A DNA stretch of 64,000 bases from Nakamurella sp. A5-74 (GTDB lineage: Bacteria > Actinomycetota > Actinomycetes > Mycobacteriales > Nakamurellaceae). The translations under genes and the position numbers were made by a program. The notes under the pieces were generated by a model. The model was not told where the DNA came from. It saw only the letters and a program-made list of their open reading frames with translations, and made no database searches. The stretch lies in the NCBI RefSeq assembly GCF_040438885.1, contig NZ_CP159218.1, forward strand, positions 3,286,001 to 3,350,000, given 5' to 3'. Positions 26,719-32,579 of this stretch are shown piece after piece; within the stretch, counting starts at the first letter, position 1, and each line of letters begins with the position of its first letter.

Positions 26719-27021
26719 TCACCAGCTGGATTTCCGGACTCCGGGGAGTTCGCCTGCGTGGGCCATCGCTCGCATCCGGATCCGCGACACCCCGAACTTT
26801 CGCAGATAGCCGCGCGGACGTCCGTCGGCGACGTCGCGGTGGCGTACCCGGACCGGTGAGGCATCCCGCGGCAGTTGCTGTAAGGCGGTCCGGGCCGCGT
26901 CACGCTCGGTGGGATCCGTAGCAGTGCGTGCGGTCTCCTTGAGCGCGAGGCGCCGCTCGGCGTACCGGGCGACCACCTCCTGGCGCTGCCGATTACGGGC
27001 GATCTTCGAGGCCTTGGCCAT
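26719..27021 (-). CDS. rpsN: 30S ribosomal protein S14, zinc-independent paralogue
   Basis: 100 residues. [20 protein letters not shown] and the C-terminal [29 protein letters not shown] identify the long, cysteine-free S14 form. It lacks the CxxC pairs of zinc-binding S14. Such copies replace the zinc form when zinc is scarce and free zinc from ribosomes. Its ATG overlaps the L28 stop (TGATG), so the two are co-translated. It lies on the minus-strand arm of the bidirectional zinc-response promoter. Confidence 0.93.
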
Positions 27022-27257
27022 CAGACCTTCTCGCCGCGGGCGCGCATCCTGGCCACGGCGGCGTCCGGGCCGATCCGGTCCAGAAGCTTCAGACCTTTGG
27101 CGCTCAACCGGAGTCGGACCGTGCGGCCCAGGGACGGGACGTACACCCGACGACGTTGGATGTTCGGGTCGAACCGGCGGGGTATGCGGACGTGGCTGTG
27201 CGAGATCGCGCGGCCGAAGCCGGGAACGCGACCGGTGAGCTGACAGTGGCGGGACAT
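27021..27257 (-). CDS. rpmB: 50S ribosomal protein L28, zinc-independent paralogue
   Basis: 78 residues: [20 protein letters not shown], then [31 protein letters not shown]. The zinc form of L28 starts with a CxxC; here only one Cys remains (C5), so no zinc site. It is the first gene of the minus-strand operon rpmB-rpsN, reading away from the palindrome at 27284-27300. Confidence 0.93.
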
Positions 27258-27326: not shown

Positions 27327-27491
27327 ATGGCCAGGAACGACGTTCGCCCGATCGTCAAGCTGAAGTCGACCGCAGGGACCGGCTACACGTACGTCACCCG
27401 CAAGAATCGTCGCAACGACCCGGACCGGATGGTGCTGCGCAAGTTCGATCCGGTTGCGCGACAATACGTCGACTTCCGGGAAGAACGCTGA
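27327..27491 (+). CDS. rpmG: 50S ribosomal protein L33, zinc-independent paralogue
   Basis: 54 residues after [46 protein letters not shown] and [14 protein letters not shown] match L33. No cysteines are present, so this is the zinc-free form. It is the first gene of the plus-strand operon facing the Zur-like site. Its stop overlaps the S18 start by one base (TGATG). Confidence 0.94.
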
Positions 27492-27712
27492 TGCCGCGGG
27501 TCCAGCGGAAGATCGCCGAGCATCGATCCGCCCGCAGCAAGCCCAATCCGCTCTACGGCGTCGCCGCCGCCGACATCGACTACAAGGACTCGATGATGCT
27601 GCGCCGCTTCATCTCCGACCGCGACAAGATCCGTAGCCGCCGGGTCACGGGCCTCACCCCACGGCAGCAGCGAACGATCCGGTATCCGCCGCTGCGGTAT
27701 GGGATGTCGTGA
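27491..27712 (+). CDS. rpsR: 30S ribosomal protein S18 paralogue with atypical C-terminus
   Basis: 73 residues. The core [20 protein letters not shown] followed by [16 protein letters not shown] is S18; it has no cysteines. After RTI the family normally has a basic helix ending in LLP. Here it reads [10 protein letters not shown] and stops. A different frame gives IRRCGMG, so a small indel may have replaced the last helix. Its stop overlaps the next gene (GTGA). It is likely regulated by zinc with L33. Confidence 0.85.
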
Positions 27713-28070: not shown

Positions 28071-28379
28071 TCAGTGGAGCTCGTGGGCGTGGGCGACAGC
28101 ATCCAGGACGATGTGCGCCAAGTGGTTGTCGACCAACTCGTAGGCGATGCTGCGGTCCTGCCGCTCGGAGCGGACCACGCCCGCTGCCCGCAGGATCTTC
28201 AGGTGTTGACTGACCAGGGGTTGCGAGACGTCGAGCCTGGACACCAGTTCGTTGACGAACAGCGGACCGTCGAGCAGTTCGATGACGATGGACATCCGGA
28301 CACCCGATGCCAGAGCGCGCAGCAACTCGACGGCGTCGTCGATGTCTGTGCTGCTCGGGCGATCGGGTGCCGCGGTCAT
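28071..28379 (-). CDS. Zinc-type ArsR/SmtB repressor
   Basis: 102 residues. A winged helix-turn-helix (LVSRLDVSQPLVSQHLKILR) is followed by a C-terminal helix carrying D84, H86, H97 and E100. The spacing Asp-x-His-x10-His-x2-Glu equals the alpha-5 zinc site of SmtB/CzrA. The alpha-3 cysteine box of arsenic and cadmium sensors is absent. It should bind DNA without metal and release it with excess zinc (or cobalt). It is second in an operon, 12 bases after the metallothionein-like gene, and likely represses its own promoter. Confidence 0.92.
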   Translation of the reverse strand: MTAAPDRPSSTDIDDAVELLRALASGVRMSIVIELLDGPLFVNELVSRLDVSQPLVSQHLKILRAAGVVRSERQDRSIAYELVDNHLAHIVLDAVAHAHELH

Positions 28380-28391
28380 GCTGGGATTAGA

Positions 28392-28727
28392 TCAGGCGGC
28401 GTGCGTGCAGGTACTGCAGGCACAGTCGGCGCAGGTGCAGTTGGCGCAACTGTCCGTGCAGTTGGCGCACTCGCAGGTGGCGTGGTTGCACGTGCTGCAG
28501 GTGCAATCCGAGCAGTTGCACATTGCGCAGGAGTCGGTGCAATTGCCGCACTGGCAGGTGTCGCACTCGTCGTAGTGCGTGCCTTCCGTGGACTCGTGGG
28601 CGCGGTGTACGTGGCCATCGTGGACGTAGTCGACGTGGTCTGTATGGATGACCGCGTCATGGCCGCAACCAGGTCCGTGGGTGTGGCGGTGCGACTCGGC
28701 GGTGCGGTGGGGTGTGGCGGTGGTCAT
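28392..28727 (-). CDS. Two-domain His-rich/Cys-rich metallothionein-like protein
   Basis: 111 residues from ATG 28727 (AGAGGA upstream). Residues 1-53 contain 12 His (HRHTHGPGCGH, HTDHVDYVHDGHVHRAH) and resemble a small actinobacterial metal-binding protein. Residues 55-107 hold 19 Cys, mostly CxC and CxxC. Two 27-residue units (58-84 and 85-111) share 19 identical positions, including C-N-C-T-D-S-C and C-S-T-C-x-H-A. This is a strong metal-chelating design, probably for zinc or copper. It matches no metallothionein layout I know. It heads an operon with the zinc-type ArsR. Confidence 0.85.
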   Translation of the reverse strand: MTTATPHRTAESHRHTHGPGCGHDAVIHTDHVDYVHDGHVHRAHESTEGTHYDECDTCQCGNCTDSCAMCNCSDCTCSTCNHATCECANCTDSCANCTCADCACSTCTHAA

Positions 28728-28759: not shown

Positions 28760-28788
28760 ATCATGATATGCGAATATCTGCATGTCAA
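28760..28788 (-). promoter_or_regulatory. Promoter of the metallothionein-arsR operon
   Basis: On the minus strand, -35 TTGACA (28788-28783) is followed after 17 bases by -10 CATGAT (28765-28760; 4 of 6 matches). Transcription would start about 25 bases before the AGAGGA ribosome site. The spacer contains the putative repressor palindrome. Confidence 0.5.
28765..28786. promoter_or_regulatory. Putative SmtB/ArsR operator
   Basis: A 22-bp palindrome of form GA-y-ATGC-rr-ATAT-yy-GCAT-r-TC (16 of 22 positions symmetric) covers the spacer between -35 and -10. This is where an ArsR-type repressor would block RNA polymerase. A further GATATGC copy lies just downstream. Confidence 0.65.
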
Positions 28789-31974: not shown

Positions 31975-32579
31975 CTCGACCGGCGCGTCGGCTACGTGCT
32001 GGCCGTCTCGTGTGACCATCGGATACCCGGCTCGCACGGACCGGTCCGGGCCGGTCTGCTGGCCCACACGCTGCCAGCCAGGTCGTGGCAGAAGTTGTCC
32101 GCAGGTACCGGTCCCAATGGGCCGCGGTTCTACTCGTGGCACTGATCCGGATCCGGCAGGACGAGCCGAGCCGTCACTGGCCATTGCTGCGTCGTAACAC
32201 TTCCACCGGCGAGATGGCCTACTACCGCTGCTACAGTCCGCGGCCCCTCCCGCTGGCTGCCCTGGTCCACGTCGCCGGGCAGCGGTGGAAGATCGAAGAG
32301 TCTTTCCAGACCGCGAAAGGCCAGGCCGGACTGGACGAACACCAGGTCCGCCGTTGGCGTTCCTGGCACCGCTGGTCCACCCTGGCGATGCTGGCGATGG
32401 CTTTCCTGGCCGTCACTACCGCCGCCGAGAAACACCGACACCCCACACCAGCCGGCCTCATCCCGCTGACCATCAACGAGCTCCGCAGGCTCTTCGACGC
32501 ACTTGTCGCCGGCGCCGCCGCTACCCGCGAACACGTGCGCCATGTGACGCAGCGGTGTCGGAGACAAAGCCGGCCTTAG
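31975..32579 (+). pseudogene. IS701-family transposase remnant, frameshifted
   Basis: The first part reads RRVGYVLAVSCDHRIPGSHG, then LLAHTLPARSWQKLSAGTG and NGPRFYSWH before a stop. The rest continues in another frame (LIRIRQDEPSRHWPLL; GQRWKIEESFQTAKGQAGLDE; HQVRRWRSWHRWSTLAMLA) to 32579. This is the C-terminal half of an IS701-type transposase, including its catalytic-Glu region (IEESFQ). The N-terminus is missing and one frameshift lies near 32148, so it is inactive. Confidence 0.85.

Follow-up and report, generated by a model that had tools for sequence, protein, structure and literature searches.

A probable zinc-buffering metallothionein joining a histidine-rich module to two tandem cysteine-rich units in actinobacteria

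Bacterial metallothioneins and their sensors

By 2020, function had been investigated for just two bacterial metallothioneins, one associated with zinc and the other with copper (PMC7387436). SmtA/BmtA adopts the fold of a GATA-type zinc finger (PMC10612145), and a paper on Frankia points to a putative metallothionein whose CXXC motifs are set among histidines (PMC4531530). Sensors of the SmtB/ArsR family with an alpha-5 metal site are recognized by the signature DxHx10Hx2E (PMC8790569).

The protein considered here is encoded in a stretch of 64,000 nucleotides from Nakamurella sp. A5-74, hereafter the window, and fuses a His-rich unit to two tandem Cys-rich units. Such a fusion is not described in the open-licence literature, as judged from the titles and abstract starts among the matches listed. 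An in-silico survey that predicted metallothioneins and metallohistins in actinobacteria (Schmidt et al. 2010, J Basic Microbiol 50:562), cited by the Frankia paper, reportedly resembles the present work in both idea and phylum. That survey may already list a protein of the window type.

The gene and its product

The metallothionein-like gene occupies 28392..28727 of the minus strand, running from an ATG at 28727 to a stop codon at 28394-28392, and encodes 111 residues with a total of 20 Cys and 14 His. The His-rich unit (residues 1-54, approximately; 28566..28727, minus strand) ends in HYDE and contains Cys21 together with 12 His, which lie within residues 1-53 at positions 7, 13, 15, 17, 23, 28, 31, 36, 39, 41, 44 and 51. 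It is followed by a first Cys-rich unit (approximately residues 55-82; 28482..28565, minus strand) with the pattern C..C.C..C...C..C.C..C.C..CNH and a second (approximately residues 83-109; 28401..28481, minus strand) with the pattern ..C.C..C...C..C.C..C.C..C.H. Residues 55-109 thus contain 19 Cys, located between residues 55 and 107, as well as His82 and His109. The two copies are offset by 27 residues and share 18, 18, 19, 20 and 19 of 27 positions in registers starting at residues 54, 55, 56, 57 and 58, respectively. When the Cys part was shuffled, none of 200,000 permutations reached 18 identities in the register from residue 55; with every Cys held fixed, 7 of 200,000 did so, and the repeat therefore goes beyond Cys spacing alone.

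These counts agree with the preliminary description, which had given 12 His in the first 53 residues, 19 Cys between residues 55 and 107 and two 27-residue units with 19 identical positions; the last figure varies between 18 and 20 with the register, and Cys21, His82 and His109 were absent from that account. Its reading of the protein as metallothionein-like, with a His unit preceding tandem Cys units, is likewise supported by the sequence. The product has the broad features of metallothioneins, being small (111 aa), rich in Cys (20 residues) and built on CxC and CxxC arrays. An AlphaFold2 model of the protein was poor (pLDDT 46.5, pTM 0.28).

The architecture is without a curated family in Pfam and NCBIfam. 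At E<=1, neither database yielded a match for the window protein or for any of the 17 members scanned (L037, L038 and L066 lay outside the alignment). The prokaryotic metallothionein family PF02069 (Metallothio_Pro) in particular matched none of the 17 members and nothing in the window's whole genome at E<=1; in the control for this profile, 4 of 14 control genomes were matched, Synechococcus elongatus included, with 1 of 14 above the cut-off. A search of solved structures returned weak Cys-rich matches only, the best at E 0.16 for the single protein and 0.029 for the profile, which were taken as chance.

Distribution and sequence constraint

Full-length fusion relatives of the window protein number at least 19, all in other actinobacterial genomes and spread over several families. 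The suggestion that this is a new type of fusion holds for the databases of curated families, but the window protein is less singular than it seemed. Most relatives come from a scan of a genome collection (84,980 species, per its description) with exact peptide patterns taken from the window protein, an approach that gives a lower bound; its 19 loci comprise 16 full-length fusions (L017-L032) and three tandem His proteins (L033-L035). The hosts of the 16 fusions are Kutzneria, Crossiella, Actinocrispum, Lentzea, Nocardia, Kibdelosporangium, Rothia, Actinokineospora, Nocardioides, a metagenome-assembled genome of Micrococcales, Actinosynnema, Actinopolymorpha and Austwickia. Profile searches contribute L037, L038 and L066 to the set. 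Among the 397 genomes searched in the order, 3 have the fusion, and among the 396 searched in the phylum, 2 do; each count includes the genome of the window itself. Matches of any kind to the profile, mostly to the His half, are far more frequent (104 of 397 and 44 of 396 genomes, respectively). Within the genus, the fusion occurs in 1 of 17 genomes and the His half only in 2 of 17.

None of the 20 Cys and 14 His varies across the 20 fusion sequences. These residues account for 34 of the 46 invariant positions, and a single Cys/His spacing pattern fits every sequence. Nonsynonymous divergence was below synonymous divergence (dN < dS) in all six fusion pairs tested (e.g. 0.038 versus 0.741 for L024/L030); judged from these coding sequences, the fusion genes are under purifying selection. 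The window reading frame is taken to be a real gene because of the 19 full-length relatives, the invariance of all ligands and the uniform excess of dS over dN. The tree of the 20 fusions resolves little, with 1 of 17 inner branches well supported.

Mobile carriage was considered and rejected, there being no match to plasmids (E<=1e-5) or phages (E<=0.01). A stand-alone Cys domain was likewise set aside: searches with a profile built on the Cys part gave matches in just 2 of 396 genomes, both carrying fusions, although this profile also missed a one-unit form in genome G434 (0 of 66 genomes of that genome's class), and short Cys-only relatives could escape it in the same way. The G434 protein, from outside the window's class, consists of a His unit and just one Cys unit, which contains 9 Cys (L067:1432-1719:+), and an SmtB-like ArsR gene lies upstream of it. 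In the order of G434, 7 of 30 genomes have a profile match, and only that in G434 extends beyond profile position 67. This protein plausibly represents the form that preceded doubling of the Cys unit; it could also have arisen by loss.

The His-rich module

The preliminary description knew the His-rich part as a short actinobacterial protein standing alone. It does occur alone, but also in tandem, as a C-terminal tail on ABC-3 permeases and fused to Cys units; judging from these sequence settings, the His part is a movable module found beyond the short standalone protein. The window's His half conforms to the core H.DHVDY.HDGH.H. The permeases are of the ABC-3 (ZnuB-type) family in both cases tested (L048:1462-2481:- and L070:676-1686:+), and a FUR-domain gene adjoins the first of them. 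Several further matches in long reading frames appear to resemble these two permeases. His units at protein termini mostly end in DEH or DDH, whereas the fusions read DEC and continue into the first Cys unit; DEC is also found in the first His unit of the tandem proteins L033-L035.

Two side observations may be added. At L058 (genome G237), ten equal-scoring profile matches are dispersed over a 4.5-Mb genome, as if on a repeated element. In a viral collection, two contigs (L096 and L095) contain open frames with His units and no Cys units, one of which consists of two units and a linker.

The ArsR partner and its promoter

A gene for a 102-residue regulator of the ArsR/SmtB family begins 12 nt past the stop codon of the metallothionein gene, on the same minus strand (28071..28379; NF033788 match, E 1.3e-21). 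The regulator is devoid of Cys. Its segment DNHLAHIVLDAVAHAHE fits the alpha-5 motif DxHx10Hx2E and bears out the initial view of this partner as a zinc-type ArsR. Because Cu, Co and Ni are listed beside Zn for the alpha-5 group (PMC8790569), zinc cannot be deduced from the motif by itself, and the sensor is no proof of the cargo.

An ArsR gene is found on the same strand within 2.5 kb of the fusion gene at 13 of the 20 loci. At L027, L028, L029, L032 and L066 the ArsR gene precedes the metallothionein gene and overlaps its start, and in the window the ArsR gene comes second; that the pair has been kept in two orders argues for a functional link between its members. The motif DxHx10Hx2E is intact in 12 of these 13 regulators, the frame at L025 appearing interrupted. 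At that locus (L025:4698-5000, Rothia aeria), where the ArsR gene lies upstream of the fusion gene, similarity continues in another frame. No ArsR gene was present at 7 of the 20 loci in the stretches examined, which for L038 covered about 1.5 kb per side; the status of L038 derives from a separate search, the His pattern used for the other loci having missed it.

A second group of loci (L020, L021, L024 and L030) is flanked on one side by a gene for a class II tRNA synthetase and on the other by genes for ABM-domain, DUF6703, ArsR and FUR proteins, with further genes intervening, including an extra open reading frame before the synthetase in L020. Pfam assignments for these neighbours were made on one representative each: the synthetase in L021, and the ABM, DUF6703 and FUR proteins in L020. 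In mycobacteria, glyS neighbours the smtB-zur operon. When the L020 ArsR was compared with the window's genome, five matches appeared, and the window ArsR ranked first with 53% identity.

Upstream of the metallothionein gene, a candidate promoter was found by eye at 28760..28788 (minus strand), comprising TTGACA, a 17-nt spacer and CATGAT. The sequence GATATTCGCATATC, a candidate operator, spans the spacer together with the first base of CATGAT. A CGMATW core lies within 120 nt upstream of 13 of the 14 fusion genes that do not have an ArsR gene directly upstream, compared to an expectation of 0.03 per 120 nt in the window, although the core was chosen after inspecting these same promoters and may be shared partly through common descent. 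The window promoter contains no significant 12-2-12 inverted repeat of the kind present at characterized SmtB sites: 8 of 12 positions paired, and 102 of 500 shuffles were equally good. For the best such repeat in each of the 14 promoters, at least 102 of 500 shuffles did as well in 13 cases, and 29 of 500 did so for L023.

Neighbouring ribosomal paralogues and history of the locus

The window also encodes four ribosomal protein paralogues in two divergent pairs, L28 (rpmB-like) with S14 (rpsN-like) at 26719..27257 on the minus strand and L33 (rpmG-like) with S18 (rpsR-like) at 27327..27712 on the plus strand, L28 and L33 being assigned by Pfam/NCBIfam and S14 and S18 by translation. The L28 paralogue contains one Cys and the other three contain none. 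In actinobacteria, zinc-free ribosomal paralogues are targets of Zur (PMC6103462, PMC2823685). A palindrome between the divergent pairs (window:26719-27712), TGTCATAATGACA, was noticed by eye and could be a candidate Zur box. The 101-residue product encoded between the S18 paralogue and ArsR (window:27709-28014) had no Pfam/NCBIfam match at E<=1.

Seven of the 17 genomes in the genus encode an L28 of the window kind (E<=1e-15), versus 1 of 17 for the window-type ArsR and, as noted, 1 of 17 for the fusion, and the stretches examined around L28 in the six relatives contained no ArsR or metallothionein match. The adjacency seen in the window is therefore probably recent, the ArsR-metallothionein pair having probably joined an older zinc-starvation cluster. 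Separately, close to the metallothionein gene the G+C content declines from roughly 0.70 to roughly 0.66 (window:28001-64000), and a transposase-like fragment was seen by eye at 32085-32579.

Proposed function and alternatives

The protein is probably a zinc-buffering metallothionein of new architecture that is de-repressed by an SmtB-like sensor, with metal binding and induction both inferred. This reading is favoured by the invariance of all ligands, the purifying selection, the operon-like pairing with a gene that encodes the sensor motif, and the zinc-related gene context. An increase in cytosolic zinc would load the alpha-5 site of the SmtB-type ArsR encoded alongside, which would leave the promoter and allow the 111-residue protein to be made. 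The two units of 9 Cys, along with Cys55, His82 and His109, would then enclose zinc tightly in thiolate clusters, the Cys part having a predicted capacity of about 6-8 zinc ions, and the His-rich unit would retain extra zinc less firmly and may be the first part to collect it. The expected outcome is zinc buffering and tolerance. Set against this reading are the seven loci with no ArsR gene in the stretches examined, the non-significant operator repeat and the poor structure model. A more elaborate two-tier relay, in which the His half catches zinc fast and weakly and passes it intramolecularly to the two tight Cys clusters, is conceivable but doubtful. If true, it would make the His unit the exchangeable module of an actinobacterial zinc kit, attached to the importer, repeated in loose tandem buffers and acting as the arm that loads a metallothionein.

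The identity of the metal is the point on which the strongest alternative turns. It is unlikely, but arguable, that the true cargo of this metallothionein is copper, cadmium or lead and that zinc is merely its resting load: soft metals are generally suited by 20 Cys in CxCxxC spacing, the actinobacterial metallothionein MymT serves copper detoxification (PMC7387436, PMC10961391), and the alpha-5 group includes both Cu sensing and an Anabaena sensor governing a cadmium-protective metallothionein (PMC8790569). However, preference for Cd and Pb belongs to the alpha-3N group, the site of which is built from Cys (PMC8790569), a residue that the window ArsR lacks, and mymT is controlled by RicR, a CsoR homologue rather than an ArsR protein (PMC10961391). 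The neighbouring genes and the His module also indicate zinc; the zinc-linked setting first proposed for this locus draws support from the ArsR motif, the ArsR-FUR neighbourhoods, the adjacent Cys-poor ribosomal paralogues and the presence of the His unit on ZnuB-type permeases.

If zinc is the cargo, the protein might be a store rather than a detoxifier, filled in times of plenty and drained in famine, alongside the zinc-free ribosomal paralogues. The adjacent Cys-poor L28/S14/L33/S18 cluster and the nearby ArsR-FUR pair of the second group speak for such a role, yet it is distinctly improbable in view of the unequal distribution of L28, ArsR and fusion within the genus and the probably recent origin of the adjacency. 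A thiol/redox or other non-metal role, with a His part unrelated to metal, is scarcely credible: Cys-rich proteins are generally known to scavenge oxidants as well, but here Cys and His are jointly invariant and the His unit recurs on zinc-type permeases.

Should the interpretation as a zinc-buffering metallothionein be correct, actinobacteria would possess a metallothionein for zinc whose two metal-binding parts differ in their chemistry. It would also connect an unnamed His module with importers, sensors and storage within a single testable system.

Comparison with known systems

SmtA/BmtA (PF02069) resembles the window protein in being small and Cys-rich, in using His ligands and in having an SmtB-type alpha-5 repressor encoded next to it. 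The 9 Cys and one His of each unit recall the Zn3Cys9His cluster of a Pseudomonas metallothionein (PMC7387436). In contrast to SmtA/BmtA, the window protein has no PF02069 match and combines two tandem Cys units with a separate His-rich half; furthermore, smtB is divergent from smtA (PMC8790569, PMC7387436), whereas the window ArsR gene lies on the strand of the metallothionein gene.

Among mycobacterial systems, the zinc-controlled smtB-zur operon of Mycobacterium tuberculosis and other mycobacteria is resembled by the ArsR-FUR layout of L020, L021, L024 and L030 (PMC10961391). MymT of M. tuberculosis is, like the window protein, an actinobacterial metallothionein, but it is copper-linked and RicR-controlled (PMC10961391), whereas the window gene is accompanied by an SmtB-like ArsR and encodes a His-rich half; the two are set apart here by description only.

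The actinobacterial His-unit proteins and ZnuB tails share the His half, mostly with about 45-70% identity over the matched stretch, and some His-unit genes without Cys units also lie near SmtB-like ArsR genes (e.g. L005, L035, L068 and L076). They differ from the fusion in that their His unit is repeated or terminal, usually ending in DEH or DDH, while that of the fusion proceeds through DEC into two Cys units.
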